Below are positions 6,293 through 42,803 of a stretch of DNA of 43,103 nucleotides, one piece after another. Source of the DNA: Arthrobacter hankyongi. GTDB lineage: Bacteria; Actinomycetota; Actinomycetes; Actinomycetales; Micrococcaceae. The notes under the pieces are model-generated. The model did no database searches. It saw only the letters and a program-made list of their open reading frames with translations, and had not been told where the DNA came from. Where the stretch lies: contig NZ_JAKLTQ010000031.1 in assembly GCF_022012395.1 (NCBI RefSeq), forward strand, positions 1 through 43,103, written 5' to 3'. Both the position numbers and the translations under genes were made by a program. Each line of letters begins with the position of its first letter. Within the stretch, counting starts at the first letter, position 1.

Positions 6293-6293
6293 G

Positions 6294-13535: not shown

Positions 13536-14531
13536 TCAGAACACCCGCGCGGCAATCTCCGCCGGTGCCGCGAGCAGTTCCTCGATCTCGTCGTCCAGCT
13601 GGACCAGGGTCACCGAGGCTCCGGCCATGTCCAGCGACGTGCAATACTCTCCCACGTAGCTGCGGCCAACGGTGATTTCCCGGGCGGCCAGCTGCTCGTG
13701 GGCCCGGCCGTACAGCACGTAGAGCTCGCTGACCGGGGTTCCGCCCAGCCCGTTGATCATCAGCGCCACCCGGTCCCCGGCGGCAAACGGCAGGTCCCGC
13801 ACCACACTCTCCAGCAGTTCGTCGATGATCTCGTTGGCCGTGGCCAGCGGGGCGCGGCGCCGGCCAGGCTCGCCGTGGATGCCCACGCCCATTTCGATCT
13901 CGTCCGCCCCAAGCTCGAACAGCGGCGAACCCTTGGCCGGAGGAGTGCAGGCGGTCAGGGCCGCACCCATCGTACGGGTCCGGGAGTTGACCTTTTGGCC
14001 GATCCGGACCAGCTCGTCCAGGTCCGCCCCGGCCTCGGCGGCCGCACCCACCGCCTTCATCACGAAGAAGTTCCCGGCCACGCCGCGCCGGCCCACGGTG
14101 AAGGTGGAATCCTCGACCGCGACGTCATCGTTGATGAACAAGGTCCGGACGTTGATGCCGTCCGCCTCGGCCAGCTCCTGCGCCATTTCGAAGGCCATCT
14201 TGTCCCCGGTGTAGTTATTCACCAGCAGCAGCACGCCCTTCGGGGAGGCCAGGGTCTTGGCGGTTTCATAGACGTAGTGCGCCGGAGGCGCGGCGAACAC
14301 ATCGCCGGGGCAGGCGCCGTCGAGCATGCCCCGGCCCACGGTCATGACGTGCGCCGGCTCGTGGCCGGACCCCGAGCCCTGGATGATGGTGACCTTGTCC
14401 TCGCGCGGGGCGTCCTTGCGCATGATCAGGTTGAACTCCGGCACATAGGCCAGCGTGTCCGGGTTGGCCAGGGCAATGCCCTTAAGCATCTCGGGCACAA
14501 AGTCCTTGGGATCATTGACGAACTTCTTCAT
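13536..14531 (-). CDS. dhaK: Dihydroxyacetone (or ketotetrose) kinase, substrate-binding subunit DhaK
   Basis: The 331-residue subunit binds its ketose covalently through a histidine, here H219 in EMGVGIHGEPG. GSGSGHEPAH near residue 53, GDVFAAPP near 76 and NNYTGDKMAF near 105 are the other conserved DhaK segments. With DhaL it phosphorylates dihydroxyacetone, or a related ketose such as erythrulose in some actinobacteria. The open frame extends further upstream to 14894, but that extension covers dhaL. The ATG at 14531 has GTGAGG 6-7 nt upstream and gives the usual MKKFVNDP start. It is the last gene of an aldolase-HAD-dhaL-dhaK set. No PTS-type dhaM is in the window, so the phosphoryl donor is open. 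Confidence 0.9.
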   Translation of the reverse strand: MKKFVNDPKDFVPEMLKGIALANPDTLAYVPEFNLIMRKDAPREDKVTIIQGSGSGHEPAHVMTVGRGMLDGACPGDVFAAPPAHYVYETAKTLASPKGVLLLVNNYTGDKMAFEMAQELAEADGINVRTLFINDDVAVEDSTFTVGRRGVAGNFFVMKAVGAAAEAGADLDELVRIGQKVNSRTRTMGAALTACTPPAKGSPLFELGADEIEMGVGIHGEPGRRRAPLATANEIIDELLESVVRDLPFAAGDRVALMINGLGGTPVSELYVLYGRAHEQLAAREITVGRSYVGEYCTSLDMAGASVTLVQLDDEIEELLAAPAEIAARVF

Positions 14532-14571
14532 GGCGTACCTCACTTCGTTGTGTTTTGCAGTTCCGGAACAT

Positions 14572-15210
14572 TCAGTGGCCGGGCCAGCCGGCGTTGATCT
14601 GCTCCAGCATGATCGCCACAGCCATCGCCCCGGCATCCGGAGACCCGATGCTGCGATCTCCGCTGTAGCTCGCACGGCCCCGGCGCGCCGCCAGGGAGCT
14701 GGTGGCCTCGGCGGCGTCCCGCGCTGCCTTGGCGGCGGTTTCGACGGCGGCCGCACCGTCCGCGCCGTCGGCGGCGGCCTGCTCCAAGGCGTCCGCCACC
14801 GGGACGAGGGCGTCAAGCAGCGTCTTGTCCCCGACCTCGGCGCCGCCGCGCACCTTGATGCCGTCGATCGCGGCGCGCAGCATGCCCACGGCATCCGCCG
14901 CGGCCAACTGCTGCCTGCCTTTGGCCACGCCGGCGGCCCGCAGGAAGGCCGTTCCCCAGATGGGACCGGAGGTGCCGCCGATCCGGGCGGAGATCACCAG
15001 GGCGACCTTCTGCAGGAAAGTGCCGATGTCGGTCCGTTCGAAGCTGTCCCAGTCCTGCAGGACGATCTCGAAACCGCGCGCCAGCGAGTAGCCGAAGTCG
15101 CCGTCGCCGACCACGGCGTCAAGGTCGCAGAATTCCTGCTCCTTCTCCACCGCCGTCCGGGCGATGGTCCGGACGATGAATTCGGTCCGGGCAAGACTGT
15201 TGGTGCTCAT
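14572..15210 (-). CDS. dhaL: Dihydroxyacetone (or ketotetrose) kinase, nucleotide-binding subunit DhaL
   Basis: The 212-residue partner of DhaK carries the nucleotide/Mg-binding aspartates in DLDAVVGDGDFG near residue 30, and the SARIGGTSGPIWGTAF and RGGAEVGDKTLLDAL segments of the DhaL fold. The usual histidine of GDGDHG is phenylalanine here. Its ATG overlaps the stop of the HAD gene (ATGA), which indicates translational coupling. DhaL proteins use either a tightly bound ADP re-phosphorylated by the PTS protein DhaM, or ATP directly. Since no dhaM is nearby, direct ATP use is the simpler guess. Confidence 0.88.
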   Translation of the reverse strand: MSTNSLARTEFIVRTIARTAVEKEQEFCDLDAVVGDGDFGYSLARGFEIVLQDWDSFERTDIGTFLQKVALVISARIGGTSGPIWGTAFLRAAGVAKGRQQLAAADAVGMLRAAIDGIKVRGGAEVGDKTLLDALVPVADALEQAAADGADGAAAVETAAKAARDAAEATSSLAARRGRASYSGDRSIGSPDAGAMAVAIMLEQINAGWPGH

Positions 15211-15992
15211 GGTGCCTTCACCTCCGAGGTGTCCAGGATTGCGTTGAGCGTGGCCAGGGCGACCCGGCCGTGCGGCCGCAGGGCGAGCGGATCGGCCAGC
15301 GTTTCGGCCGGTTCGCCCGGCTCCCCCAGGGACGAGACGACCAGCGCCGCCCCGGTGAAATCCTCCCCGGCGGTGTAGCTGCTGACGGTCACGATGGTCT
15401 TCAGGCCGGCGCCGAGCGCGGCCTGCAGGCCGTTGGCGCTGTCCTCCACCACCACGACCTCCTGCCGGCCGGCCCCGAGGTCGGCGACGGCCAGTTCGTA
15501 GATGTCCGGTGCCGGCTTCTTGCGGGGCACGATATCTCCGGCATAGACCCGGAAACGGGCCGCCCGTGCCGCCCCGACCACGTGGGCCAGCACCGCCCGG
15601 ACGGAAACCTCCGCCGACGTCGAGGCCACGGCCAGCTGCCAGCCGGCCGCGAGCGCCTCGTCCACGAGCCGGACGACGCCGGGCCGGCCGGGCATCCGCC
15701 CTTCCTGGACCGCCCGCGTGTAGTGCGCGGTCTTGGCCCGGTGCCAGGCGGCCAGCAGGTCCGACTGGGCCCGGGCATCCGCCGGCAGTCCGTTCGCCGC
15801 GACGAACTCCGGCGTCAGCAGGCTGGCCATGCGTTCCTTGCCGCCGCCGATCAGCAGCTTGCCGGCGTAGTCCTCCTCGCTCCAGCGCACCGGAAGCCCG
15901 AAGTCCGCAAACGTGCTGTTGAACGCCGGCAGGTGCCCGAAACGCTCGGTATCGGCCAGCACGCCGTCGCAATCAAAGATCAGCGCAGGCAT
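15207..15992 (-). CDS. HAD-IA family hydrolase (beta-phosphoglucomutase-like phosphatase)
   Basis: The 261-residue protein opens MPALIFDCDGVLADTE, with nucleophile D7 and acid/base D9. It continues with the motif II threonine/serine in AVASTSAE, a lysine in PRKKPAPDIY, and motif IV VVVVEDSANGLQAAL. A helical cap lies between motifs I and II, as in CbbY and phosphoglycolate phosphatases. It probably removes phosphate from a small sugar phosphate in the cytosol. The start is taken as the ATG at 15992. A GTG at 15998 overlaps the aldolase stop (GTGA) and is also possible. The tight coupling with the aldolase upstream and dhaL downstream suggests that it handles an intermediate, or a toxic by-product, of the same ketose pathway. 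Confidence 0.85.
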   Translation of the reverse strand: MPALIFDCDGVLADTERFGHLPAFNSTFADFGLPVRWSEEDYAGKLLIGGGKERMASLLTPEFVAANGLPADARAQSDLLAAWHRAKTAHYTRAVQEGRMPGRPGVVRLVDEALAAGWQLAVASTSAEVSVRAVLAHVVGAARAARFRVYAGDIVPRKKPAPDIYELAVADLGAGRQEVVVVEDSANGLQAALGAGLKTIVTVSSYTAGEDFTGAALVVSSLGEPGEPAETLADPLALRPHGRVALATLNAILDTSEVKAP

Positions 15993-15994
15993 GC

Positions 15995-16855
15995 TCACCA
16001 GGCCTTTCCGGCGCTGCCGAACTGCTTGGCCAGGCCCACCGTCAGTGTCTTCACGTCGGTTCCGACCGCGCGGAACAGCGACGGCGGATCCCAGGTGTCC
16101 GCCTGCTCGGCGCCCTTGAGGAACACCAGGCTCGAGCGCATGTACTCCTGCTTCAGGGCGGTGGATATGTTGACCTTGGCGCAGCCGCGCGCGATCAGGT
16201 CGCCGAACTGGGCGTCGGAGAGGCCGCTGCCCCCGTGCAGGGCGATCGGGATCCCGGTGGCCTGGACGATGTCGCTCACGCGCTGGACGTCCAGCACGGG
16301 GGCCTGCTTGTATTTGCCGTGCGCATTGCCGATGGCCGGGGCGAAGACATCCACGCCGGTTTCGGCGATGAAGTCCAGGGCCACCTGCAGCGGCTGGCGC
16401 ACGGACTCCGCATCGGAGCCGACGCCGTCCTCGACACCGGTGATGGATTCGATCTCCCCTTCCACATGGGCGCCGCAGCGGCGTGCCTGGGCCACAACCT
16501 CGATGGTCTGGCGCTGGTTCTCGGCCACCGGAAGCTCGGAGGCATCGAAGAGCACCGAATTCCACCCGCGGTCGAGGCACTCGGTGATCACTGCCCGGTC
16601 CGGACAATGGTCCAGATGCAGGGTCACGGGCACCTCGATCCCCGCCGTCATGCCCTCCCACATCCGGAAGAGCACATCCGCCCCAATGGACCTCACGGTT
16701 TTCACCGAGGTCTGCACGATGACCGGGGAACTGGCTTCCACCGCGCCGGCCAGCACGGCTTCGAGGGTCAGGTCGTTGAAGATATTAATGGCCGGAACAC
16801 CGTAGCGCCCGTCGAACGCGCGCTCCACGATGTCCTTCAATGGCACAACTGCCAT
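15995..16855 (-). CDS. Class II (metal-dependent) ketose-phosphate aldolase, GatY/FbaA family
   Basis: The 286-residue protein has the class II aldolase pattern: PAINIFNDLTLEAV near residue 22, the Zn-ligand segment LHLDHC near 83, HVEGEIESI near 130, GNAHGKYK near 178, LHGGSGLSD near 207 and the phosphate-binding KVNISTALK near 230. It cleaves a ketose (bis)phosphate into DHAP and an aldehyde, or runs in reverse. Fructose-, tagatose- or another bisphosphate cannot be distinguished. Start 16855 (ATG) is chosen because AAGGAG is 6 nt upstream; the TTG two codons earlier is too close. It is followed immediately by the HAD gene and dhaLK and preceded 54 nt away by an SDR gene, so it is probably co-transcribed with the long catabolic block. 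Confidence 0.88.
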   Translation of the reverse strand: MAVVPLKDIVERAFDGRYGVPAINIFNDLTLEAVLAGAVEASSPVIVQTSVKTVRSIGADVLFRMWEGMTAGIEVPVTLHLDHCPDRAVITECLDRGWNSVLFDASELPVAENQRQTIEVVAQARRCGAHVEGEIESITGVEDGVGSDAESVRQPLQVALDFIAETGVDVFAPAIGNAHGKYKQAPVLDVQRVSDIVQATGIPIALHGGSGLSDAQFGDLIARGCAKVNISTALKQEYMRSSLVFLKGAEQADTWDPPSLFRAVGTDVKTLTVGLAKQFGSAGKAW

Positions 16856-16909
16856 ATGCAACTCCTTGGGTGGGGCCGGCTGGGCCGGCGGATCTTGCCG
16901 GGCCGGCGG

Positions 16910-17818
16910 TCAGCCCGCCGCGGCTGCGGTCCGGGCCGCCTCGGCCCGGTAGGCGGCGAAGGCCCGGGCCCGCTGTTCGGCTCCTTCGCGGTCGCTGTCC
17001 GGGTCCGCGAAGGCGTCCAGGATCGTGTCGAAATGGGCGCGCACGCCGTCCTTGGTCTCGGGGAACGGCAGGATGTACAGTTCCTCGTTCTCGACGGCCT
17101 GCTTGACATGCCCGGCCAGCACCACAGGGTCCATGCCACCGCTGTAGAGCCGTCGCTGCAGTTCGATGAAGGCCTCATCGGAGCGGAATCCGCTGTTGGC
17201 AGCCAGATGCGCCGGCCTGGTCTGCTGGGCATCGGCGATATTGGAGCGGATGCTGGCCGGGCACAGCACCGAGACGCCGATGCCGTACTTCGGCAGGGTG
17301 AGTGCGTAGCTTTCCATCAGGTTGATGACCGCAGCCTTGGTGGCCGAATAGATGGCCGCCGTCGGACTGCCTTCGAATCCGGCCATCGAGGCCGTGGTGA
17401 CGATGTGCCCGTCGCGGCCGCTGTCGATCATGCGCGGCAGGAAGGTCTGGATGCCGTTGACCACACCGTGCAGGTTCACCCCGAAGATCCAGTCGAAATC
17501 CTCGTAGGTGGCCTTCTCCAGCGGGCCGAAACTGTTGACCCCGGCCGTGTTGAACAGCAGCTGCGGCGGCCCGCCAAAGACGGATTCCACCTCGTCGGCG
17601 GCCGCGGCGTAGGCCTGGCGGTCGGAGATGTCGAGCCGGATGGCGTGGGACTCGATGCCCTCCGCGCGCAGCTTCGCCAGGGCCTCGTCCAGCGCGTCCT
17701 GGCGGATGTCGGCGATCACGATCCGGCAGCCCGCCTGGCCGAAGACCTGTGCCTGGCCGAACCCTGCCCCCGAGGCGCCCCCGGTAATGAATGCGACTTT
17801 GTCCTTGAATGTCTCCAT
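16910..17818 (-). CDS. Short-chain dehydrogenase/reductase (SDR)
   Basis: The 302-residue protein is a classical SDR. The cofactor loop is TGGASGAGFG near residue 12, an aspartate follows beta-strand 2 (IADIRQDA) and favours NAD, NTAGV marks the NNAG motif, and the catalytic Ser...YSATK pair lies near residues 145-163. It likely interconverts a secondary alcohol and a ketone in the cytosol. AGGAGGAG is just upstream of the ATG. The C-terminal extension of about 60 residues is longer than in minimal SDRs. Its position after the SnoaL-like gene with a 10-nt gap places it in the LLM monooxygenase operon. Confidence 0.88.
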   Translation of the reverse strand: METFKDKVAFITGGASGAGFGQAQVFGQAGCRIVIADIRQDALDEALAKLRAEGIESHAIRLDISDRQAYAAAADEVESVFGGPPQLLFNTAGVNSFGPLEKATYEDFDWIFGVNLHGVVNGIQTFLPRMIDSGRDGHIVTTASMAGFEGSPTAAIYSATKAAVINLMESYALTLPKYGIGVSVLCPASIRSNIADAQQTRPAHLAANSGFRSDEAFIELQRRLYSGGMDPVVLAGHVKQAVENEELYILPFPETKDGVRAHFDTILDAFADPDSDREGAEQRARAFAAYRAEAARTAAAAG

Positions 17819-17828
17819 CTGTCTCCTC

Positions 17829-18263
17829 CTAGCGGCCCAGCGGGATAATGCCCAGATCGTGGAGCAGGCTCACCTTGTTCCAGGAGGCCCATTCCTCGGC
17901 AATCAGCCCGTCCTCGAAACGGCACATCACCATGCCCCGGGCGGTGACCGCACGGTAGGTCGGGCGCACGCCCAGGTATTCGCCCAGGTGCGTCCCGGTG
18001 GCCTCCCAGCGGTAGGCCACGCGGTCGCCCTGGCTGATGATGTCGAACTGCAGCCGGGCAAGATCGGGGAACCCCGTGTAGAGCCGGCGCAGGCCCTCGG
18101 CCAGGCGTTCCCGGTCGTAATCACCCTTGTCACCGTGGCGTACGAACCCGGCGGTGTAATACGTGTCCAGCGAAGCCAGAGCTCCGTCAAGGCCGCCGTG
18201 GTCCAGCGAGCGCAGCAAGTGCCCGCGGTTGGCCTCTTCGACTGTCTTCTGGTCGGTCGTCAT
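17829..18263 (-). CDS. SnoaL-like/ester cyclase family protein (NTF2 fold)
   Basis: This 144-residue protein shows the SnoaL/NTF2-like pattern: an N-terminal helix, YYTAGFVRHG, EGLRRLYTGFPDL near residue 60, RVAYRWEATGTHLGEYLGV near 85-105 and RFEDGLIAEEWASWN near 115. Members include polyketide cyclases, lactone- or ester-forming enzymes, hydrolases and pure ligand-binding proteins, so no reaction can be assigned. AAGGAG lies 10 nt before the ATG. It sits between a flavin reductase and an SDR in the LLM monooxygenase operon. A role in handling a cyclic or lactone intermediate is inference only. Confidence 0.8.
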   Translation of the reverse strand: MTTDQKTVEEANRGHLLRSLDHGGLDGALASLDTYYTAGFVRHGDKGDYDRERLAEGLRRLYTGFPDLARLQFDIISQGDRVAYRWEATGTHLGEYLGVRPTYRAVTARGMVMCRFEDGLIAEEWASWNKVSLLHDLGIIPLGR

Positions 18264-18278
18264 CTAATCCAAACTCCT

Positions 18279-18836
18279 TCACTCATGGCCCGGCCGCTGC
18301 CGGACCGGCTCCAGCCTGGCGCCGTCGAAGAACCTACCGGCCTGGTAGACCAGCGGCGCTTGACCGGAGGAATCGGCGTCCACCACCTGGCCGATGAAAA
18401 TGGTGTGCGAGTAGGCGGGGATCTTGTACTTGACCTCCAGTTCGAAGTGCCCGGCCACCCCGTCCAGCACCGGCACCCCGTGGGTGCCGGGCCGCCACGG
18501 CAGGGCCGCGAACTTGTCCCCGCCGGACTTGGCGAAGTTAGCGGCCACACCCGCCTGGTCGGCGGCGAGGATGTTGACGCCGATATGGTCCGCCTCGAAC
18601 ACCGCGGGGTAGGACCGGGAGGATTCGTTGACGCAGACGAGCACCAGCGGCGGGTCCAGCGAAATGCTGGAAAAGGCATTCACGGCCAGTCCGTAGGGCT
18701 TGCCGCCGGCGGCAGCGGTCACCACCGTCACTCCGGTCGGGTACTGGCGGTGCACGCCGCGCACCCTCTCGCCCAGTTCGGCGCTGCGCGGATCGGCGGC
18801 AGGCTGGGCCGGTGTTGCGGTTGTTGTCTCTGTCAA
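18279..18836 (-). CDS. Flavin reductase family protein (HpaC-like)
   Basis: The 185-residue protein has the FMN-binding split-barrel pattern of HpaC-type NAD(P)H:flavin reductases: YPTGVTVVTAAAGGKPYGLAVN near residue 32, FSSISLDPPLVLVCVN near 55 and VGVNILAADQ-like spacing near 85. It would supply reduced FMN or FAD to a partner monooxygenase. The natural partner is the LLM enzyme encoded three genes upstream in the same operon. The start is a TTG at 18836, supported by GGAGG 8 nt upstream; the first ATG lies too far inside the fold. It lies 31 nt after an SDR gene and 15 nt before the SnoaL-like gene. Confidence 0.85.
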   Translation of the reverse strand: MTETTTATPAQPAADPRSAELGERVRGVHRQYPTGVTVVTAAAGGKPYGLAVNAFSSISLDPPLVLVCVNESSRSYPAVFEADHIGVNILAADQAGVAANFAKSGGDKFAALPWRPGTHGVPVLDGVAGHFELEVKYKIPAYSHTIFIGQVVDADSSGQAPLVYQAGRFFDGARLEPVRQRPGHE

Positions 18837-18867
18837 GGTTCTGTCCTCCGGGGATTCGCGCGGACGC

Positions 18868-19680
18868 TCAGGCGTCCTGCAGTGCCGGGAAGCCGGCCTG
18901 GATGCGGGCGTGGCGTTCGCTGACCTGGGCCAGCCATTCGGCGTGGGTGGGGGCGTAGAGTTTGTTGCCGCGGATGGCTTCGAGCACGATCCGTCCCACG
19001 TCCGCCGGCTGCAGGAAACGGAAGTTCTTGCCGTTGCCGGCGATATCGACGTCGTGCAGGCCGCTGGCGTCCGCGGCGGGACGGGTACGCAGGCTGTTCA
19101 TGATGTTGGTGCGCACCGGGCCGGGGATCAGCGCCGTGGCACCGACCACCGAGCCGCGCAGGGCCAGTTCCTGGGCCAGCACTTCCGTCAGTCCCAGCAC
19201 GCCGGCCTTGGCGGCCACGTAGGCAGCGAGGTTCGCCGGCGGGGCGATGACCGACATGGAGGATGTGTTCACGATCTGGCCCCAGTCCGGGTTCCGTTCC
19301 AAGACGGGCAGGAAGGCATGCACGCCGTGGACCACACCGTAGAGGTTCACCTCCAGCATCCAGCGCCAGTCCGCCAGGGTGAGTTTGTCCACCGGGGCCA
19401 GGGGACCGACGCCGGCGTTATTGCAGACCACATGCACCCTGCCGTACTCGGACACCGCCCGGTCGGCGAGCGCCTGGACGCTGTCGGCGTCGGTGACGTC
19501 GGTGCGCACGCCCAGGACTCCCAGTTCCGCGGCGGTGGCGGCCAGCGCCGCGTCGTCGATATCCGCGATGATGACGTTGGCTCCTTCGGCCAGGAACGCC
19601 TCGGCAATCCCCTTGCCGATCCCGGAGGCACCACCGGTGACGACGGCGACCGACCCGGCGAATTCCACAGTCCTGCTCAT
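18868..19680 (-). CDS. Short-chain dehydrogenase/reductase (SDR)
   Basis: This classical SDR of 270 residues has the cofactor loop TGGASGIGKG near residue 13, IADIDDAAL with an NAD-type aspartate, a CNNAGVGPL motif near 86, and the catalytic serine with YVAAK near 140-155. It probably oxidises a secondary alcohol or reduces a ketone with NAD(H). The first in-frame codon is TTG at 19683. The adjacent ATG at 19680 is preferred because GAGG is 6 nt upstream. It follows the AcoR-like regulator by 54 nt and precedes the flavin reductase by 31 nt. It differs from the second SDR at 16910, and the two may act on different steps. Confidence 0.88.
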   Translation of the reverse strand: MSRTVEFAGSVAVVTGGASGIGKGIAEAFLAEGANVIIADIDDAALAATAAELGVLGVRTDVTDADSVQALADRAVSEYGRVHVVCNNAGVGPLAPVDKLTLADWRWMLEVNLYGVVHGVHAFLPVLERNPDWGQIVNTSSMSVIAPPANLAAYVAAKAGVLGLTEVLAQELALRGSVVGATALIPGPVRTNIMNSLRTRPAADASGLHDVDIAGNGKNFRFLQPADVGRIVLEAIRGNKLYAPTHAEWLAQVSERHARIQAGFPALQDA

Positions 19681-19734
19681 CAATGTCCTCTTCCCTGCTT
19701 GTTCCGTAGTTGTTCCTGCGCGCCTGGCCGTCGG

Positions 19735-21579: not shown

Positions 21580-21583
21580 CCCG

Positions 21584-21632
21584 CCGGCCGGCGGGCGGGC
21601 TGTCCGGCCGGCGGGCGGGCTGTCCGGCCGGC
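21584..21632. repeat. Short tandem repeat, 20-bp unit, about 2.5 copies
   Basis: The unit CCGGCCGGCGGGCGGGCTGT occurs exactly at 21584-21603 and 21604-21623. A third partial copy (CCGGCCGGC) starts at 21624. It lies in the 96-nt spacer between the LLM gene and the AcoR-like gene. Its high GC content could slow transcription or translation between the two. Confidence 0.85.
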
Positions 21633-21675
21633 AGCCGGCCCCTCCGGCGTCGTGCGCAGCTGCCGGGCGGCGCTC

Positions 21676-22770: not shown

Positions 22771-22859
22771 TTGTTCGTTCCCTTCGGTGGGTAATCCGGA
22801 TGTAATTCAGATCACTAACTGGTAGGTCTGGACCCACGTTATCGAGGCTTTAAGGGGCC

Positions 22860-22882
22860 GGAAGTCTCACTTTGAGACTTCC
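22860..22882. promoter_or_regulatory. Putative activator site upstream of the LLM operon
   Basis: GGAAGTCTCA-CTT-TGAGACTTCC is a perfect palindrome with 10-bp arms. Its core GTCTCA-N3-TGAGAC (22864-22878) recurs at 32484-32498 upstream of the CocE/liv operon. The core lies 94-108 nt upstream of the LLM start codon, a usual distance for an activator of the AcoR type. It follows the ALDH gene, so a terminator role is the alternative. Confidence 0.6.
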
Positions 22883-24441: not shown

Positions 24442-24488
24442 CTGCGCTCTCCTCACGGCATTCTCGTTGGCGGTGTGGTGCGGCCGGC

Positions 24489-25589: not shown

Positions 25590-25618
25590 CTGCACCTCTT
25601 TGTGGTTGTTCCTGACTG

Positions 25619-26620
25619 TCATTTCCGGTCCGCTGCGGCCCGGGTCCAACGGCCGCGCGGCGCGCGGCGGAAGAGCGAACCGGCCTTCCGTCCGCCGGCC
25701 TGGAGCAAATGCGCCAGGCCGCGCGGTTCGAACACCATCACCAGCACCAGCGCCAGCCCGTAGATGATCAGGCCGACTTGTCCCACCGGGATGCCGAACT
25801 GCCCGGATTGGCTGAAGTCCTCCTGCAGGAAGGGGATGTACTCGGCGTACTGCGTGGCCAGGATCGGGATGGAGCTGATCACCGTGGCGCCCAGCACCGG
25901 GCCCCAGGTGCTGCCCAGGCCGCCGACGACGACAATGATCAGCAGTTCCAGCCCCATGTTGATGCCGAACTGCTCGGCCTGCACGTAGCGCAGTTGGGCC
26001 ATCAGCAGCCCGCCGGCCAGGCCTCCGAACGCCCCAGCCAGGATGAAGGCCATGACCTTCGCCCGCCCGGTATTGATGCCGGCGATCTGGGCGGCCGTCT
26101 CTGCCTCGCGGATGGCCACCAGGGAGCGGCCGAAGCGTGTCCGGCGCATGTTCACGACGGCGACCATGCCGGCCGCCACGCACAGCCAGATCACGATGAA
26201 CAGACCCTGCTCGTAGCTGTAGCGCATCCCGCCGATGGTCAGCTCGCCGAAGTCGACGAAACCCAGCGACAGACTCGGAGCGGCCGAGATGCCGCTGTTC
26301 CCACCGGTCAGCGCCGGCGTATTGACGAAGATGAAATTGCCGACGAAGATCAGGCCCAGGCTCAGCACGATCTGGAAGACGCCTTTGAGCCGCAGCGTCA
26401 GCGGGGCGGCCACGGCGGCGGCGATCCCGCCGGCGAGGAAGGTCGCGGGCAGCCACACGAGCAGCGGCAGGTGGGCCAGACTGCCCAGCCCGACTCCGGC
26501 GAAGGCGCCAATGCCGACGAAGACGCTCTGCGCCAGGGAAATCTGTCCCGCGTAGCCGGACAGCACGTTGAGTCCGATGGCGGCAACGGCATAGATGCCG
26601 ATGGTTCCGGCAAGCGACAT
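25619..26620 (-). CDS. livM: Branched-chain amino acid-type ABC permease LivM (frame lacking the N-terminal helix)
   Basis: The 333-residue frame covers most of a LivM-type permease: IGIYAVAAIGLNVLSGYAGQISLAQ at the start, SLGLIFVGN, AIREAETAAQIAGIN near residue 170 (the ATPase-contacting EAA-like loop) and FGGLAGGLLMAQL. It forms the membrane channel with LivH. The normal first helix is missing from this frame and is found instead in a short upstream frame (26620-26775) in a different phase. One extra C in the CCC at 26628-26630 would join them as IAAPFLMSLAG. Either the gene carries a frameshift (real or a sequence error), or translation restarts at the TGATG overlap. It lies between livH and the alcohol dehydrogenase gene. 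Confidence 0.85.
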   Translation of the reverse strand: MSLAGTIGIYAVAAIGLNVLSGYAGQISLAQSVFVGIGAFAGVGLGSLAHLPLLVWLPATFLAGGIAAAVAAPLTLRLKGVFQIVLSLGLIFVGNFIFVNTPALTGGNSGISAAPSLSLGFVDFGELTIGGMRYSYEQGLFIVIWLCVAAGMVAVVNMRRTRFGRSLVAIREAETAAQIAGINTGRAKVMAFILAGAFGGLAGGLLMAQLRYVQAEQFGINMGLELLIIVVVGGLGSTWGPVLGATVISSIPILATQYAEYIPFLQEDFSQSGQFGIPVGQVGLIIYGLALVLVMVFEPRGLAHLLQAGGRKAGSLFRRAPRGRWTRAAADRK

Positions 26621-26775
26621 CAGGAACGGGCTGCGATGAGGATCAGCGCCAGGGCGGTCCCGAGCACAATCCGGTCCCGGGTGGACCGGGTCAGCCGGGA
26701 CTCGTCCCGGGGCCGCGGTGCCGGCTTCCGAACCGGCCGGTGTTCTGCGGTGGTGGCAACTTCGGTAAGGGCCAT
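26620..26775 (-). pseudogene. livM: Detached N-terminal fragment of LivM (frameshifted)
   Basis: This 51-codon frame starts at the ATG at 26775, 5 nt after the livH stop. It encodes a polar, basic N-terminus followed by a hydrophobic run (IVLGTALALILIAA), then R-S and a TGA stop overlapping the ATG of the 25619-26620 frame (TGATG). The hydrophobic run is the expected first LivM helix. The phase changes at the GCCCG near 26628-26633, where one missing C explains the break. It is listed as a broken piece of livM and not as an independent small protein. Confidence 0.65.
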
Positions 26776-26780
26776 CGGTC

Positions 26781-27686
26781 TCACGCCTTCCTGGTCTGAA
26801 GTGTCTTGGCGAAGCCGCCCGGCTTGACCACCAGCAGCAGGATCATCACGACCCAGGGCAGCATCGTGGGGAAACCTTGGCCGAGGCTGTCGGGCGCGTA
26901 CCCGGACGCGTAGGTCTGGACCAGTCCGAGCGCCAGGCCGCCGTAGATGCAACCGGGCAGCGAGGACAGGCCGCCGAGGATGAGTGCAGGCAGCGCGCTG
27001 AAGGCGATCTGGTCCAGGTTCGGTACCAGTCCGCCGCCGATCTCGGTGGCCAGCATCATGCCGGCCAGCACCGATGCGGCACCGCACATCGCCCACGCCG
27101 TCGCGGAGATGACGCGCGGGTTGATGCCCTGGGCTCGGGCCGCCTCGGGATCACTGGCAGCGGCCCGCATGCCGACGCCGACCTTGGTGTGCTGGATGAT
27201 GACGTAAAAGACAGCCAGTAGCGCCAGGCTCAGCAGGACGGCCCAGATGTCGCGTACCGCGATGGCCACGCCGCCGAAGCGGACCACGCTGAGTCCCCAG
27301 GGATCCTCGATCAGGTAGTTCAGCGGGCCCCAGACACTGACCACCATCGCCTGCGCAATCGAGATCAGGCCCAGGCTCACCAGCAGCACCGAGAGGTGCT
27401 CGATCGACTTGTGGCCCTTGCCCGCCAGCCGGGAGAAGAGGAACCGCTCGCCCAGCATGCCCAGCGCCGTGCAGGCTGCGGCGGCCAGCACCACGGAGAG
27501 GATGAAGTCCAGCTGCCAGAGCACATGGAACTGGTAGGTAAGGTAGGCGCCCAGGAGCACGATGGCACCCGGAAACATGTTGAAGTGGCCGGTGGCTTTA
27601 AGCAGCACGGCGAAGCCGATGGCCACCAGGGCGTAGAGGATGCCCAGGGACAGTCCGGAGGCCGTGAGCTGGATGAAGTTATTCAC
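26781..27686 (-). CDS. livH: Branched-chain amino acid-type ABC permease LivH
   Basis: The 301-residue integral membrane protein starts with GTG at 27686, overlapping the livG stop by 8 nt, with a GAAGAGG site upstream. It shows the LivH pattern: LTASGLSLGILYALVAIGFAVLLKATG, NMFPGAIVLLGAYLTY near residue 37, SDPEAARAQGIN near 185 (ATPase-contacting loop) and LGGLSSLPGCIYGGLALG near 245. About eight to nine helices are expected. It pairs with LivM to form the channel. In HAAT-family importers the cargo may be branched-chain amino acids, but amides, urea, short acids and aromatic compounds are also carried. The enzyme genes downstream favour a catabolic substrate. Confidence 0.9.
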   Translation of the reverse strand: MNNFIQLTASGLSLGILYALVAIGFAVLLKATGHFNMFPGAIVLLGAYLTYQFHVLWQLDFILSVVLAAAACTALGMLGERFLFSRLAGKGHKSIEHLSVLLVSLGLISIAQAMVVSVWGPLNYLIEDPWGLSVVRFGGVAIAVRDIWAVLLSLALLAVFYVIIQHTKVGVGMRAAASDPEAARAQGINPRVISATAWAMCGAASVLAGMMLATEIGGGLVPNLDQIAFSALPALILGGLSSLPGCIYGGLALGLVQTYASGYAPDSLGQGFPTMLPWVVMILLLVVKPGGFAKTLQTRKA

Positions 27687-28482
27687 TGGTCGCCTCTTCC
27701 ATTGACAGCAGGGCGGGTGTTTGGGATCCGTCGACCGTCCCGAGATAGGCGGCGATGACGCGTTCGTTGCGCTGGATCTGATCCGGTGTCCCCAGCCCGA
27801 TGGTTTCGCCGAAGTCCAGCGCCAGGATGCGGTCGGCGATCCGCATGACCATGGCCACATCGTGCTCGATCATGACGATGGTCAGCCCGAGCCGTTGCTT
27901 CAGCTCAAGCACGAAGTCAACGAACGCCTCCGTTTCCTCGTGGTTCATGCCCGCGACAGGTTCGTCGAGCAGCAGCAACTGCGGCCCGGAGGCAACCGCC
28001 TTGGCGATCTCCACGCGTTTGCGGATGCCGTAGGGCAGTGTTTCCACCACGAGGTCGCGGTATTCACGCAGGCCCATCAGCTCCATGAGTTCGTCCGCCC
28101 GGGCCCGGGCGCGCCGTTCGGAGCTGAAGGTGGCAGGCCAGCGGAACGCGGCCGATAGCGCGCCGCCGCGGATCTGCAGGTGGCTGCCGACCAGTATGTT
28201 TTCGGCCACGGTCATCGACCCGAACAATCCGAGGTTCTGGAACGTCCGGGCGATGCCCAGGTCGGCGATCTCATGTGGTTTGCGGCCGATGAGTTCGGTA
28301 CCGTCGACTTTGATGGACCCGGCCGGGCGCACCAGCCCGCTGAGGCAGTTGAACAGGGACGTCTTCCCGGCGCCGTTGGGGCCCAGGATGGCGAAGAACT
28401 CGTCCTTCTCAACCGTGAAGGTGACGTCCCGCAGCGCCACGACTCCGCCAAACTCCAGTCGGAGGGATTCCACATGCAGCAT
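27679..28482 (-). CDS. livG: ABC importer ATP-binding protein LivG
   Basis: The 267-residue ATPase has Walker A GPNGAGKTSL near residue 34, the LivG-specific IARTFQNLGLFGSMTV at the Q-loop, a signature segment LPYGIRKRVEIAKA (degenerate LSGGQ, as is usual for LivG), Walker B LLLLDEPVAGM and the switch histidine in IEHDVAMV. The long insertion between the Q-loop and the signature (FRWPATFSSERRARAR) is typical of LivG. The start ATG at 28482 overlaps the livF stop by one base (TGATG). The frame continues upstream without a start that fits. It drives transport with LivF on the cytoplasmic face of the LivHM channel. Confidence 0.92.
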   Translation of the reverse strand: MLHVESLRLEFGGVVALRDVTFTVEKDEFFAILGPNGAGKTSLFNCLSGLVRPAGSIKVDGTELIGRKPHEIADLGIARTFQNLGLFGSMTVAENILVGSHLQIRGGALSAAFRWPATFSSERRARARADELMELMGLREYRDLVVETLPYGIRKRVEIAKAVASGPQLLLLDEPVAGMNHEETEAFVDFVLELKQRLGLTIVMIEHDVAMVMRIADRILALDFGETIGLGTPDQIQRNERVIAAYLGTVDGSQTPALLSMEEATSE

Positions 28483-29306
28483 CAGCGCAGAGCTCCGTTC
28501 TCCGCCCCGCGTGGGGCGGTGGGGGCTGCGACGCCCAGATAGAGGTCGCGCAGCGTGTCGTCGGCGAGCAGGGCGGCCGCGCTGCCGTGGTGCTCCACCC
28601 GCCGGCTGTCCAGGACGTAGGCATAGTTGGCCACGGACAGAGCCGCGGTGACGTTCTGTTCGATCAGCAGGACGCTGCACCCGCCGGCGTTGATATCGCG
28701 GACGATCTCCATGATCTGCTTGACGATCAGCGGGGCCAGCCCCAGCGAGGGCTCGTCCAGGAGCAGCAGCCGGGGCCCCTGCATCAGGGCCCGCCCGACG
28801 GCGAGCATTTGCTGCTCGCCGCCGGACAGCAGCCCTGCCGCCAGGTCCCGCTTCCGGCCAAGCACCGGAAACAGTTCCATGACCTGCTCCAGGGCCTTCG
28901 CGGTGCCGGCGCGCGACGTCGTATACCCGCCGGCCTTGAGATTGTCGACCACGCTCAGGTCACCGAAAATGCGGCGGCCTTCAAGTGAAATCGAGATGCC
29001 CTGGCGCACCCTGGACCAGGAACTGGACGAAGAAATGTCCGCGGAACGGTACCGGATCGAGCCTGCGCGGATGGCACCTCCGTGCAGCCCGAGCAGTCCG
29101 GAGATCGCCCGCAGCAGGGTCGTCTTGCCGGCACCGTTGACTCCCAGCAGGGCCACGATCTCGCCCTCGTGCACGGTCAGACTCACGCTCTCCAGCGCGG
29201 AGATCGAGCCTGAGCTGTAGGTGACCGAGAGATCCTGAACCGACAGCAGCGCTGGCGCCTGCAAGCGGTCGGCGTTCTGCCGCGCGGACATGGTCTCGCC
29301 GTTCAT
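28482..29306 (-). CDS. livF: ABC importer ATP-binding protein LivF
   Basis: The 274-residue ATPase has Walker A GVNGAGKTTL near residue 55, ISLEGRRIFGDLSVVDNLKAG at the Q-loop, the signature LLSGGEQQML, Walker B LLLLDEPSLGLAP and the switch histidine position replaced by glutamine in IEQNVTAA, as in other LivF proteins. The N-terminal 20 residues before the ABC core are longer than usual. AAGGAG is 6 nt before the ATG. It lies 33 nt after the binding-protein gene and overlaps livG by one base. Confidence 0.92.
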   Translation of the reverse strand: MNGETMSARQNADRLQAPALLSVQDLSVTYSSGSISALESVSLTVHEGEIVALLGVNGAGKTTLLRAISGLLGLHGGAIRAGSIRYRSADISSSSSWSRVRQGISISLEGRRIFGDLSVVDNLKAGGYTTSRAGTAKALEQVMELFPVLGRKRDLAAGLLSGGEQQMLAVGRALMQGPRLLLLDEPSLGLAPLIVKQIMEIVRDINAGGCSVLLIEQNVTAALSVANYAYVLDSRRVEHHGSAAALLADDTLRDLYLGVAAPTAPRGAENGALR

Positions 29307-29339
29307 GGTTACTCCTTGTGGTGTGTTGCCGGGAGGGCG

Positions 29340-30638
29340 TCAGCTGTCGGAGACGGAGTCGTTGTACTCCGCGGCCACCGTTGAGTCATACCCGTACTTC
29401 TTCAGCTTCAGCCCGGTCGGGGAGCCGGAGTCCACGGTGAAGATCGACATCGTGCTGCCCGACTTGCGCTCGGTCAGGCTCGTCCCGTAGTTGAAGGCAC
29501 CCCCGGCCAGGCCCAGGTCGTCCACGGTACCGAGGGAGGCTGCCACCTCGAGCAGGTGCTCACGGGACAGATCGCCGTCGGCGATGGCCTTCTTGAGCAC
29601 CGCCGTCGTGGTCATGGCCGCCATGTATCCGGTCTGGTAGCTGTTGGCCATCGGCTTGGCGTTAGGATCGACGGCCTTGATGTCCTCTTCCATCTGCTTC
29701 TGGCCCGGAGCCGAGTCGTCGCCCCACTCGGTACCGGTGACGACGAAGCGCACGTTCTTCTTGATGTAGTCGGCTGCGGCGCCGGTGGCCAGGCTGGCGT
29801 TGTAGGCCGTGTTCCCGGCAATCCAGTCGGCGTCGAAGTTCAGCTGCACGGCACGCACTGCGGCGTTTTGGACGACGGCACCGACGCCGCCCAGATCGAC
29901 AACCTCGCAGCCGGCGTTCTTCAGCTTCGAGATCTGCGGGGTGAAGTCCTGCAGCGCGCTGGGATAGCGCACCGTCACGCCGGTCTTCAGGCCGAGCTTC
30001 TTGGTGGCGAAGTCGAAGCCGTGCACGACTTCCGAGCCAAAATCGCTGTCTTCGGCGAGGGAGCAGTAGGTGGCATCCTTGAAGCCCTCGTCATTTGCCA
30101 TGTAATCGATCGCCGCGGTGTGGTAGGTGGCGTAGAAGGCGCCGAAAGGCACCAGGTTCGGATCCGAGATCAGGCTCTGGTCCGAGGAGGCCGGGACGGC
30201 CAGGACCTTGTCCGTCTTCATCTGCGGCAGCAGCGCCTTGGTGATGGCGGTGCCGAGCACGTTGGTGAACATCAGCACATTGTTCTTCAGCGAACTGTAC
30301 AGCGGGACGGCCACCGAGGGGTTGTATTCGGTATCGACGTTCTTCACCTTGACGGTGAAGCCTTCCAGCGGACCGCCGGGCTGGGTGGCGCGGTGGAAGT
30401 AGGCCTCGGAGCCGGTGATGTTGGTGGCCGCAGGCGCCCAGATACCTGAGGTGGGGACCATGGAGCCGACCGTGATGGTCTTGGTGTCGGCGTCGAACCC
30501 GGGGACACTGACCAGGGTCTTGGCACCACCCTTGCTGTCGGTATCGCTGCCGCTGCTGGATACGGCGGTGCCGGCACAGCCGGACAGCAGCAGGGCGGCG
30601 GTGGCCGCAAGCGCCAGGGTGCGTCGTGGTGCGCGCAT
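29340..30638 (-). CDS. ABC importer substrate-binding lipoprotein (Leu/Ile/Val-binding-protein family)
   Basis: The 432-residue precursor has a basic N-terminus, a hydrophobic stretch and a lipobox LLLSGC at about residues 17-22, so it is a lipoprotein anchored outside the cytoplasmic membrane. The mature part opens TKTITVGSMVPTSGIWAP, the usual start of periplasmic-binding-protein type 1 members that feed Liv-type importers. Start 30638 is fixed by AAGGAG 8 nt upstream; this site lies in the last codons of the hydrolase gene. It captures the substrate for LivFGHM. The ligand is not readable from sequence. The neighbouring hydrolase, dehydrogenases and monooxygenase argue for a catabolic compound and against amino acid uptake. 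Confidence 0.9.
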   Translation of the reverse strand: MRAPRRTLALAATAALLLSGCAGTAVSSSGSDTDSKGGAKTLVSVPGFDADTKTITVGSMVPTSGIWAPAATNITGSEAYFHRATQPGGPLEGFTVKVKNVDTEYNPSVAVPLYSSLKNNVLMFTNVLGTAITKALLPQMKTDKVLAVPASSDQSLISDPNLVPFGAFYATYHTAAIDYMANDEGFKDATYCSLAEDSDFGSEVVHGFDFATKKLGLKTGVTVRYPSALQDFTPQISKLKNAGCEVVDLGGVGAVVQNAAVRAVQLNFDADWIAGNTAYNASLATGAAADYIKKNVRFVVTGTEWGDDSAPGQKQMEEDIKAVDPNAKPMANSYQTGYMAAMTTTAVLKKAIADGDLSREHLLEVAASLGTVDDLGLAGGAFNYGTSLTERKSGSTMSIFTVDSGSPTGLKLKKYGYDSTVAAEYNDSVSDS

Positions 30639-30640
30639 AT

Positions 30641-32383
30641 TTACTTCTCCTTCGAAGGAATGACGGGCAGGTGGATGTAGCTGGGATGTGCGGCGCTGCA
30701 GAAAATCTGCTGCTCCGCGGTGGTGAAGTCTTCGGCGGTCACGTCGCCGGCCGGCTTGCCGCTGCCGGAGTTGCGGTCGTAGCACGGGAAATTGGAACTG
30801 GCGATGTCGACGCGGAGCCGGTGGCCCTTCTTGAAGACCTGGCTGGTCGCGGCGAGATCGATGGTGTATTCGTAGACCTGGCCCGGCTCCACCGGTGCGG
30901 GTTCGTCCATGCCGTGGCGGTAGCGGGCGCGGACGATCCCGTCTGCCACGCCCAGGGCCCGGCCGTCGGGCCAGACGTCGATGAGCTTGGCGGTGAAGTC
31001 CGTATCTCGCGCCGACGTCGCGGCATGCAGCGTGACGCGCAGCGGCCCGGTGACTTCCATGTCCTGCTCCAGGACCGGGCCGGTGAACCGCAGGATGTCG
31101 GTGCGGGCGTCCAGCCCGCGTTGGTCCCGGGGCCCGGGCATATAGCCGGCACCGCCGTCCGGACCGCCTTGGATCAGGGTGCCGCCGCCCACGGTGGGCA
31201 CCGGGTGGTGCGGATCGTGCGTGAAGCCGAGCCAGCGGTCGTCGTCGTCAGCCCCGGGGGCGGGTTCCTGCGGCGACAGGCCGCCGCCGGGCTGCAGGTA
31301 CCACTTCTGCCAGTCGGTGCGCGCCAGCGGCCATTCATTCTCCACACGCCAGACATTGGCCCCCATGACGAAGATCTGCACCGTCGGCAGCGTGGTCGGC
31401 GTGCCGTCGACGCTTTCGCGCAGGAACCGCAGCTGCTGCTCTTCCAGCCGGACGGCCAGGGCCGAGCCGGCGCCGAAGAACAGCTCCCCGGCCGCCCCGG
31501 TATAGTCCGCATGCGTCCAGGGCCCGATGATCAAGTGCTGGTTGGCGCGGGCCTCGGCGCTCTCGGCACCCTGCGAGATCGTGGTGAAGTTGTCCAGGGT
31601 GCCGCGGAGGAAGAGGTCGAACCAGCCGCCCACGTGCAGCGCCGGCACCTCGGTCCGCGTCCTGCGGTCCGCGTAGCTGATCCGCTTCCAGTAATCCGGC
31701 TCGGTTTCCTGCTCCAGCCACTTGGTCCAGCTCGGCAGGACGTCGCTGATGGCGCTCAGCGCGGTCAGCGGCAGGGTGCGGTAGCTGGACTCCATGTCCC
31801 GGGTCATGGCGAAAAAGGCGCCCAGCTGGCTGCCAACGTCCTCGCCGCGGGTGGCACGCTCGCCCAGCGTCTGCGCGGTCTTGAGCGTGTGCCAGCCCAG
31901 TGCCTGGCCAAGCTGGAGCGCGCCCTGGTTGAAGACCAGTCCGTCGCGGTAGTGGTGGGTGGCCACGATCGGCACGATGGCGGCCAGCCCCTTCGGGCGG
32001 TGGCCGCTGACGGCCAGCTGGGACATGCCCAGGTAGGACGGGCCGAACATGCATACCTGTCCGTTGGACCAGGGCTGGCCGAGCAGCCACTCAATGGTGT
32101 CCAGGCCGTCCTGGGTTTCGTTTTCGAAGGCCCAGAGCTCACCTTCGGACCGTGCCGTGCCCCGGCAGTTCTGTACGACGACGGCGAAGCCCGCCTCGAG
32201 CGCCGGTGCGACCGGCAGCGTCCGGCTCATCTGCTCGTTGTACGGGGTGCGCACCAGCAGGACCGGCCGCGGCTCCCCGCTGGACCTCCGGTACACCGTG
32301 GCGGCCAGCACCACGCCGTCGCGCATCGGCACGCCGGCGGACTCGCTGGAAGTGCTGGTCAAGGTTTCGATTGTCTCGGTCAT
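30641..32383 (-). CDS. CocE/NonD family serine hydrolase
   Basis: The 580-residue alpha/beta hydrolase of the X-Pro dipeptidyl-peptidase (S15)/cocaine-esterase group has YRRSSGEPRPVLLVRTPYN near residue 32, VVVQNCRGTARSEG near 68 (oxyanion region), and the nucleophile serine in MFGPSYLGMSQLA near 112-118. The likely acid is in the RGTLDNF region, with the histidine in IIGPWTH. The C-terminal beta-sandwich contains KKGHRLRVDIASSNFP. No signal peptide is seen, so it should be cytosolic. It hydrolyses an ester or amide. It is the first gene of the importer operon, with a regulatory palindrome 101-115 nt upstream, and its 3' end contains the ribosome binding site of the binding-protein gene. Confidence 0.88.
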   Translation of the reverse strand: MTETIETLTSTSSESAGVPMRDGVVLAATVYRRSSGEPRPVLLVRTPYNEQMSRTLPVAPALEAGFAVVVQNCRGTARSEGELWAFENETQDGLDTIEWLLGQPWSNGQVCMFGPSYLGMSQLAVSGHRPKGLAAIVPIVATHHYRDGLVFNQGALQLGQALGWHTLKTAQTLGERATRGEDVGSQLGAFFAMTRDMESSYRTLPLTALSAISDVLPSWTKWLEQETEPDYWKRISYADRRTRTEVPALHVGGWFDLFLRGTLDNFTTISQGAESAEARANQHLIIGPWTHADYTGAAGELFFGAGSALAVRLEEQQLRFLRESVDGTPTTLPTVQIFVMGANVWRVENEWPLARTDWQKWYLQPGGGLSPQEPAPGADDDDRWLGFTHDPHHPVPTVGGGTLIQGGPDGGAGYMPGPRDQRGLDARTDILRFTGPVLEQDMEVTGPLRVTLHAATSARDTDFTAKLIDVWPDGRALGVADGIVRARYRHGMDEPAPVEPGQVYEYTIDLAATSQVFKKGHRLRVDIASSNFPCYDRNSGSGKPAGDVTAEDFTTAEQQIFCSAAHPSYIHLPVIPSKEK

Positions 32384-41927: not shown

Positions 41928-42803
<876 letters not shown>

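Follow-up and report, generated by a model that had tools for sequence, protein, structure and literature searches.

Analysis of a 43,103-nucleotide stretch of the Arthrobacter hankyongi genome (the window; contig C25 of a 5.19 Mb genome in 67 contigs, here G000) identified a block of 18 minus-strand genes at positions 13536-32383. In transcription order, they encode a CocE-type hydrolase (CocE), a HAAT-type substrate-binding protein (SBP), LivF, LivG, LivH, LivM, an alcohol dehydrogenase (ADH), an aldehyde dehydrogenase (ALDH), a luciferase-like monooxygenase (LLM), an AcoR-like regulator, a short-chain dehydrogenase/reductase (SDR2), a flavin reductase (FlvR), a SnoaL-like protein, a second SDR (SDR1), a class II aldolase (Ald2), a HAD phosphatase, DhaL, and DhaK (Table 1). 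Families were assigned by Pfam and NCBIfam scans, which confirmed the products listed in a preliminary description of this DNA. With a probability of roughly 0.55, the block is a two-operon AcoR regulon for lignin-type aromatics bearing an oxygenated side chain, degraded via a LigD-like dehydrogenase, the LLM, and an esterase.

Two operons marked by an inverted repeat

Intergenic gaps, calculated from the start codons selected in this analysis, ranged from -8 to 54 bp except for 160 bp before LivM, 222 bp before the LLM, and 96 bp before AcoR. The one-strand arrangement with mostly short gaps described earlier stood in gene content and strand. The 222-bp gap carries a conserved inverted repeat with a second copy before CocE, and the block is accordingly two operons rather than a continuous one, the first predicted to run as CocE-SBP-LivFGHM-ADH-ALDH and the second as LLM-AcoR-SDR2-FlvR-SnoaL-SDR1-Ald2-HAD-DhaL-DhaK.

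The repeat before the LLM, GTCTCAAAGTGAGAC, has 6-bp arms and is the longest fully conserved block of the gap in a three-way alignment of the window with Arthrobacter sp. SF27 (G005, same genus) and Zafaria cholistanensis (G038), in both of which the gap is of similar length. In the window it lies 94 bp upstream of the LLM start, and its counterpart GTCTCAAAATGAGAC lies 101 bp upstream of the CocE start. The exact pattern GTCTCA-N3-TGAGAC occurred at two sites apiece in the three genomes, all at the LLM and CocE promoters, compared with no site for a reversed-pattern control and 0.09-0.15 sites per genome expected from base composition.

At E <= 1e-60 the LLM was found in 3 of 148 relatives, its own genome included, and sampling across the phylum yielded, apart from the window, only relatives at 34-43% identity (4 of 396 genomes). 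Gene presence was compared by tblastn across 15 loci with at least 57% LLM identity (the window and L012-L025), six of 20 LLM loci (L026-L031; 28-45% over a partial query) having been excluded beforehand along with weaker ADH, ALDH, SDR, and Liv matches (25-41%) in other loci; the L024 LLM is split across two frames and was omitted from protein alignments. Loci L018, L019, L022, L023, and L025 end at contig ends, so the counts are minima and absence is weak evidence there. AcoR (at least 54% identity) and SDR2 (at least 61%) were each detected at eight loci, CocE (at least 58%) at five, LigB (at least 93% to the L020 protein) at five, and FlvR at four (38% identity in one case); with identity of 63% or higher required, SDR1 and the liv genes were present at three loci and ADH/ALDH and the Ald2-HAD-DhaLK genes at two. 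The LLM, liv, and SDR/FlvR/SnoaL genes were kept together in three genomes (the window's, SF27, and Zafaria).

Among the 14 other loci, the exact repeat precedes the LLM in L012, L013, L015, and L017, as does a version with one mismatch in L014; these are exactly the loci where AcoR and SDR2 were both detected. No repeat with up to two mismatches was found in L016 and L018, where AcoR was detected and SDR2 was not (L018 stops right after AcoR), nor in the seven LLM loci without AcoR. As the repeat tracks loci with AcoR and SDR2, we infer that the AcoR-like protein binds it as a candidate operator. Very probably, the block is one regulon of two operons, and the earlier view of the genes as a single functional set gained support from the repeat common to both operons and from the three genomes that hold the LLM, liv, and SDR/FlvR/SnoaL genes together. 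The regulator contains HTH_8 and AAA lid domains, and its translation lacks GAFTGA, the sigma-54 contact motif of AcoR-type activators.

A LigD-like dehydrogenase and aromatic neighborhoods

The aryl-ketone hypothesis, formed after LigB-type neighbors had been seen, preceded the PDB search that revealed the match between SDR1 and LigD. SDR1 scored 361 bits with LigD, 266 with LigO, 233 with the unassigned SDR 3ioy, 199 with LigL, and at most 151 with the remainder, so that 3ioy outranks LigL and SDRs not named C alpha-dehydrogenase reach at most 233 bits; the matching entries are titled "C alpha-dehydrogenase" and we take them to be LigD, LigO, and LigL. Identity of SDR1 with LigD is 57.4% over 296 residues, compared with a lower 42% between LigD and LigO. 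In the reverse search of G000 with LigD, SDR1 (359 bits) and SDR2 (99 bits) were the sole hits at E <= 1e-20 of 84 candidates, and the same two genes ranked first and second in SF27 and Zafaria. SDR1 is thereby closest to LigD/LigO and the reciprocal best match of LigD, and it is proposed from this likeness to be a LigD-type C-alpha-dehydrogenase acting on benzylic alcohols. At E <= 1e-60, SDR1 was present in 3 of 198 relatives including its own genome (best 11 SDR candidates scored per genome), the same three genomes as for the LLM, and LigD-like genes were rare in actinobacteria, at 2 of 396 sampled genomes with the window's included (E <= 1e-70; best five candidates per genome). SDR2 orthologues (61-74%) lie beside the LLM in 7 of the 14 other loci, and two Lig-like SDRs suggest the handling of stereoisomers.

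The block also contains the features of a type II Baeyer-Villiger monooxygenase (BVMO), namely a luciferase-like TIM-barrel oxygenase and a separate flavin reductase gene (PF01613) in the same gene run, and FlvR is proposed to serve as the reductase partner of the LLM. The AlphaFold2 model of the LLM (mean predicted local distance difference test score, pLDDT, of 82.4) was closest in Foldseek to luciferases and RslO1, a fold compatible with Baeyer-Villiger chemistry without establishing it. CocE passes the cut-off of its TIGR00976 model, and its nearest solved relatives are cocaine esterase, which hydrolyses a benzoyl ester; oxygenation of an aryl ketone to a benzoyl-type ester is therefore the economical reading, in which CocE would cut the ester product and the substrate side would be aromatic. 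Sulfonate catabolism, prompted by an adjoining NMT1/SsuA-like binding protein, was dropped because the LLM scored 23 bits against an SsuD cut-off of 518.

Plasmid-borne LLM relatives at 38-44% identity (eight records, four loci fetched) have riboflavin-synthesis and acyl-CoA genes in their vicinity; no SDR1 orthologue was present in the four fetched loci (one 32% SDR match), and these relatives were excluded from substrate inference. As an observation in its own right, those loci (L032-L035, on Rhodococcus, Pseudonocardia, and Mycobacterium plasmids) place the LLM relatives near 3,4-dihydroxy-2-butanone-4-phosphate synthase genes, two of which are fusions with GTP cyclohydrolase II, an arrangement suggestive of a co-encoded flavin supply.

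LigB-type ring-cleavage genes were identified near LLM orthologues in 5 of the 14 other loci. In L019-L022 and L024, from uncultured Acidimicrobiales and other actinomycetes, the LLM is preceded on its own strand by a LigB gene and a GFO/IDH/MocA oxidoreductase gene, which adjoin it immediately in four of these loci and are separated from it by about 1.7 kb in the fifth, L019; Amidohydro_2 genes accompany four of the five. The L020 LigB scored 501 bits with PRK13366, a class III extradiol dioxygenase model whose cut-off is 317 bits, and from family membership the three neighbors are presumably LigB, LigC, and LigI/J of protocatechuate 4,5-cleavage. Zafaria has two PF00775 (PcaG/PcaH-like) genes and a Lyase_1 gene on the opposite strand, about 3.3 kb and more upstream of CocE. 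Given the LigD-like SDR1, the cocaine-esterase-like hydrolase, and the ring-cleavage genes nearby, the substrate is probably aromatic.

The conserved set exceeds the block, since counterparts 71-90% identical surround the same cluster in SF27 in a partly different order, among them genes for an acyl-CoA ligase, a Rieske oxygenase and reductase, a second flavin reductase, and catechol 1,2-dioxygenase (Table 1). SF27 additionally encodes, at positions 5755-7395 of locus L074, a thiamine pyrophosphate (TPP) enzyme resembling sulfoacetaldehyde acetyltransferase or acetolactate synthase, scoring under the cut-off of each of the 25 models listed, flanked by two NMT1 proteins and upstream of CocE. 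Further away in the window, a single 892-aa frame (2986-5664, minus strand) joins trehalose-phosphatase, trehalase N-terminal, and GH15 domains consecutively.

Table 1. Genes of the block, candidate operator sites, and flanking genes in the window
Feature	Position	Strand	Evidence
CocE/NonD hydrolase, proposed benzoyl-type ester hydrolase	30641..32383	-	TIGR00976 417 bits vs cut-off 66.3; best PDB matches cocaine esterase, 333 bits
HAAT substrate-binding protein (Peripla_BP_6)	29340..30638	-	PF13458; single PDB relative at E <= 1e-5: 4n03
LivF ATPase	28482..29306	-	Pfam/NCBIfam
LivG ATPase	27679..28482	-	Pfam/NCBIfam
LivH permease	26781..27686	-	Pfam/NCBIfam
LivM permease, N-terminal part upstream in a different frame	25619..26620	-	PF02653; compared with SF27 and Zafaria LivM
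Zinc alcohol dehydrogenase (ADH)	24489..25589	-	Best NCBIfam model NDMA-dependent ADH, under its cut-off; Zafaria orthologue 64%
Aldehyde dehydrogenase (ALDH)	22993..24441	-	Best NCBIfam model StyD, under its cut-off; Zafaria orthologue 63%
Luciferase-like monooxygenase (LLM), proposed type II Baeyer-Villiger oxygenase	21676..22770	-	PF00296; AlphaFold2 model and Foldseek
AcoR-like regulator	19735..21579	-	HTH_8, AAA lid; GAFTGA motif absent
SDR2	18868..19680	-	Second-best LigD match in G000
Flavin reductase (FlvR), proposed LLM partner	18279..18836	-	PF01613; PDB relatives mostly named flavin reductases/reductase components
SnoaL-like protein	17829..18263	-	PF07366; best PDB "Predicted ester cyclase" 66.7 bits
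SDR1, proposed LigD-type C-alpha-dehydrogenase	16910..17818	-	LigD (4y98) 361 bits, E 4.1e-107
Class II (F_bP type) aldolase (Ald2)	15995..16855	-	PF01116
HAD phosphatase, beta-phosphoglucomutase/YqaB-like	15207..15992	-	Below NCBIfam function-specific cut-offs
DhaL	14572..15210	-	TIGR02365 168.1 bits vs cut-off 138.3
DhaK	13536..14531	-	TIGR02363 420.7 bits vs cut-off 406.25
Candidate AcoR site upstream of LLM (inverted repeat GTCTCAAAGTGAGAC)	22864..22878	-	Three-way alignment, pattern search
Candidate AcoR site upstream of CocE (inverted repeat GTCTCAAAATGAGAC)	32484..32498	-	Pattern search
Acyl-CoA ligase adjoining DhaK	11764..13329	-	PRK06187 522.8 bits vs cut-off 476; SF27 81%, same place
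NMT1/SsuA-type binding protein upstream of CocE	32736..33770	-	SF27 77%
Second flavin reductase, between NMT1 protein and Rieske pair	33986-34594	+	SF27 counterpart 74%
Rieske reductase (VanB-like by neighbor and domains)	35386..36399	-	Pfam; SF27 counterpart
Rieske oxygenase (VanA_C, O-demethylase type)	36415..37515	-	PF19112; best PDB dicamba O-demethylase 194 bits; SF27 90%
PadR regulator	37646..38230	+	Pfam; SF27 counterpart
Catechol 1,2-dioxygenase CatA	41928..42776	-	TIGR02438 514.4 bits vs cut-off 404.4; SF27 499.1 bits, 79%, near same cluster

Proposed pathway and competing explanations

From these genes we infer a route in which the HAAT transporter, whose gene set is complete with two ATPases, two permeases, and a Peripla_BP_6 protein, would import the substrate, both operons being switched by the AcoR-like protein at the 15-bp inverted repeat. 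SDR1 and SDR2, perhaps acting on one stereoisomer each, would convert a benzylic alcohol to an aryl ketone, and the LLM with flavin reduced by FlvR would insert oxygen next to the carbonyl in a type II Baeyer-Villiger reaction. Hydrolysis of the resulting benzoyl-type ester by CocE may then liberate an aromatic acid together with a C2/C3 fragment, either an alcohol or an aldehyde, which would be oxidized by ADH and ALDH, and/or yield a C2/C3 product taken by Ald2-HAD-DhaLK, while the acid could pass to O-demethylation and ring cleavage by nearby-encoded enzymes. The sequence of alcohol, ketone, ester, and hydrolysis put forward in the preliminary description fits the LigD-like SDR, the LLM with its flavin reductase, and the cocaine-esterase-like hydrolase; the substrates it named (terpenoids, cyclic ketones, glycerol ethers, and tetritols) are unlikely, as the findings favor aromatic side chains.

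Several observations weigh against this pathway. No SDR1 was found in the fetched DNA of the 12 LLM loci outside the window, SF27, and Zafaria, several of which are cut at contig ends, and the SF27 cluster has neither ADH nor ALDH. SDR2 resembles Lig enzymes only distantly, its best PDB match being 5ig2 (153 bits), which is not named a Lig enzyme, ahead of LigL (144 bits). The second LigD-like gene of the phylum sample (G379, 59%) has no LLM within the 19.5 kb fetched, so that a LigD-like gene need not be accompanied by an LLM. Foldseek placed 3,6-diketocamphane monooxygenase (3,6-DKCMO), a type II BVMO, at rank 22 with 20% identity, below luciferases and RslO1, and none of the 50 solved structures listed exceeds 28% identity with the LLM model. 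PF00775-type intradiol dioxygenase matches number nine in G000, five in SF27, and four in Zafaria; as such genes are not scarce in these genomes, one nearby is modest evidence. The N-terminal part of LivM (26620-26800, minus strand) is off-frame relative to the remainder, as judged against LivM of SF27 and Zafaria, which looks like a frameshift or an assembly error. The SnoaL-like protein has no role in the proposed route; LdpA, a deformylase, is NTF2-fold, and a SnoaL function of that type was considered and rejected since the sequence search gave SnoaL-like proteins, a cyclase, and one hydroxylase structure and no LdpA, the AlphaFold model (three sequences, pLDDT 45.7) being too poor for fold comparison. 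Finally, Rhodococcus GD02 did not grow on guaiacylglycerol-beta-guaiacyl ether according to an extract of its report (PMC9618137); its plasmid carries a 42% LLM relative, with SDR1 not found nearby.

The most probable of the alternatives, a little short of even odds and otherwise compatible with the aromatic regulon, is a mosaic in which the LLM, CocE, liv, and SDR genes form one pathway and Ald2-HAD-DhaLK is a separate triose-type module joined by chance in two genomes. Ald2 and DhaK were detected in 12 and 13 of 198 relatives, respectively, at the limits used and with the window and SF27 included, and outside these two all ten fetched loci with the four-gene module (16-17 kb each) lacked the LLM, a further point against the complete pathway. 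CocE, liv, AcoR, and SDR1 were likewise unmatched in those ten loci (L070 has a 38% SDR2 match), and the Zafaria LLM cluster is without the module. Set against the mosaic are the position of the module, which begins 54 bp after SDR1 and occupies the corresponding place in SF27 with 77-91% identity, and a fused DhaKL of different build in Zafaria, which lies with an SsuABC-like transporter about 4 kb after SDR1, beyond an opposite-strand gene, a P450, and a binding protein. The preliminary description would have given up its proposal had the LLM, liv, and dha parts occurred independently and never together; they do occur independently, and all three co-occur in the window and SF27. Its release of a C3/C4 ketose to DhaKL remained unproven in view of the ten LLM-free loci. 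DhaK and DhaL both pass their model cut-offs and could act on dihydroxyacetone or equally on another small ketose, and as the module is free-standing elsewhere its link to the pathway is suggestive only. Also rejected was a plain C3/C4 polyol pathway centered on DhaKL, as the module is free-standing elsewhere and a polyol leaves the LLM, CocE, and LigD-like genes unexplained.

Two side observations concern these modules. Downstream of the Zafaria LLM cluster (L073, 1837-9234), a P450, an SsuA-like binding protein, the fused DhaK-DhaL, a permease, an ATPase, and a Fer2 reductase form a second small-molecule set. The compact Ald2-HAD-DhaL-DhaK modules without an LLM cluster (L061-L070) span five actinobacterial families, some with GAF/LuxR-type hybrid regulators or a SorC-type sugar-binding regulator as neighbors, and no description of the free-standing module was found in the open-licence PubMed Central (PMC) literature.

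Within the aromatic regulon, the substrate could be a monomer or a dimer. Monomeric aryl ketones or aryl-propane alcohols (e.g., beta-hydroxypropiovanillone or arylglycerols) in place of beta-O-4 dimers would yield a C2 diol, oxidized by ADH/ALDH, alongside an acid of the vanillate type, a narrower and non-exclusive form of the proposed pathway that we consider possible but doubtful. It is favored by ADH and ALDH in the window and Zafaria, a GlcD-like gene (below its model cut-off) before the LLM of L014, and the lack of a beta-etherase-type gene in the cluster, and disfavored by the two Lig-like SDRs that suggest stereoisomers and by LigD itself, which acts on dimer alcohols (PMC10765951; PMC3961688, in extract). 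With a beta-O-4 dimer the ester would be a hemiacetal ester, so that one oxygenation and one hydrolysis would release an aryl acid, glycolaldehyde, and a phenol. Glutathione-independent beta-aryl-ether cleavage of this kind, in which LigD-type ketone formation precedes LLM oxygenation of the C-alpha/C-beta bond and acyl hemiacetal hydrolysis breaks both the C-C and ether bonds, is a tentative and on balance unlikely extension; actinobacteria would run it from an AcoR regulon of two operons, and LLM orthologues (from uncultured Acidimicrobiales and other actinomycetes) would be tied to ring cleavage of the LigB type (protocatechuate 4,5-cleavage).

It is improbable that, in the same aromatic regulon, the LLM instead hydroxylates the carbon beside the ketone, the beta-ether collapsing to a phenol and a 1,2-diketone cut by a TPP enzyme or hydrolase. 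The AcoR type of the regulator, the SF27 TPP enzyme two genes upstream of CocE, and the LLMs of L021, L022, and L024, followed by two E1 subunit genes (2-oxo acid/acetoin dehydrogenase type) with no preceding CocE, are consistent with hydroxylation, but CocE lies directly before the LLM in L016 and L018 and is repeat-marked in the window, SF27, and Zafaria, an arrangement that fits formation of an ester. A non-aromatic ketone (terpenoid, steroid side chain, or cyclic ketone) as the substrate of a Baeyer-Villiger route is very improbable, since the LigD-type SDR, the cocaine-esterase-type hydrolase, and the ring-cleavage and O-demethylase-type genes around the clusters argue against it, even though characterized LLM-type BVMOs use camphor diketones (PMC9836352, in extract) and progesterone (PMC12239570, in extract).

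Relation to known systems

Beta-aryl ethers are the dominant lignin bond, and the described enzymatic route for their cleavage uses glutathione enzymes of sphingomonads (PMC10765951; PMC3961688); statements on published work here refer to extracts of the cited papers. If the proposed pathway is true, lignin-type aromatics would be opened by an oxygen-inserting flavin enzyme in place of the glutathione route of other bacteria, and the regulon offers specific genes, a putative operator, and two identified isolates (SF27 and Z. cholistanensis) for examining such an alternative, relevant to carbon cycling and lignin valorization. No description of this gene set was found in the open-licence PMC literature. 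Acinetobacter TUS-SO1 oxidatively converts 2-phenoxyacetophenone to phenol and benzoate, a BVMO being named as a possibility with no enzyme identified in the extract, and is inactive on alpha-(2-methoxyphenoxy)-beta-hydroxypropiovanillone (MPHPV); Nocardioides and Streptomyces isolates also cleave the 2-phenoxyacetophenone ether bond (PMC8861056). The glycolate oxidase of Rhodococcus jostii oxidizes glycolaldehyde, the C2 piece expected from C-alpha/C-beta cleavage, in a paper that favors a radical cleavage mechanism (PMC9811514), and Arthrobacter sp. SF27 is reported to be a dibutyl phthalate degrader (PMC12728591).

Type II BVMOs, including the diketocamphane monooxygenases, the LLM of the Caenibius pdc cluster, and AbmE2/AbmZ, share the luciferase-like TIM barrel and separate flavin reductase, but the LLM here is 20% identical to 3,6-DKCMO by Foldseek and has other neighbors; the Caenibius LLM and AbmE2/AbmZ are likened by description only. 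Baeyer-Villiger activity of an LLM was demonstrated on progesterone (PMC12239570), and in Sphingobium AntQ-1 an LLM next to a hydrolase was proposed for aryl ketone oxygenation and lactone hydrolysis in anthraquinone breakdown (PMC9836352). That pair, likened by description and not by sequence, has a different substrate, and its extract names no SDR, transporter, or dha genes. Rhodococcus cocaine esterase provides the closest solved relatives of CocE, which is here part of a proposed ketone/aromatic regulon. The acetovanillone Hpe pathway of Rhodococcus GD02 is likewise an actinobacterial catabolism of a lignin-derived aryl ketone, but according to its extract proceeds by phosphorylation, carboxylation, and beta-elimination for hydroxylated ketones, with Baeyer-Villiger oxidation proposed for acetophenone only.

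The closest parallel is the beta-aryl-ether pathway of Sphingobium SYK-6 (LigD/L/N/O, LigE/F/P, and LigG). No glutathione S-transferase (GST) beta-etherase was found among the cluster genes, and a genome search limited to PF13417 and PF13409 gave no match in G000 for the former and one for the latter (25.9 against a cut-off of 25 bits, a 365-aa frame on another contig). The two systems share a LigD-type dehydrogenase (57%), more than one Lig-like SDR, a probable aromatic acid product, and, in the metagenomic relatives of the LLM, a LigB-type dioxygenase, whereas here the LLM, flavin reductase, and CocE would replace the GST beta-etherase and are accompanied by a HAAT importer and an AcoR-like regulator.

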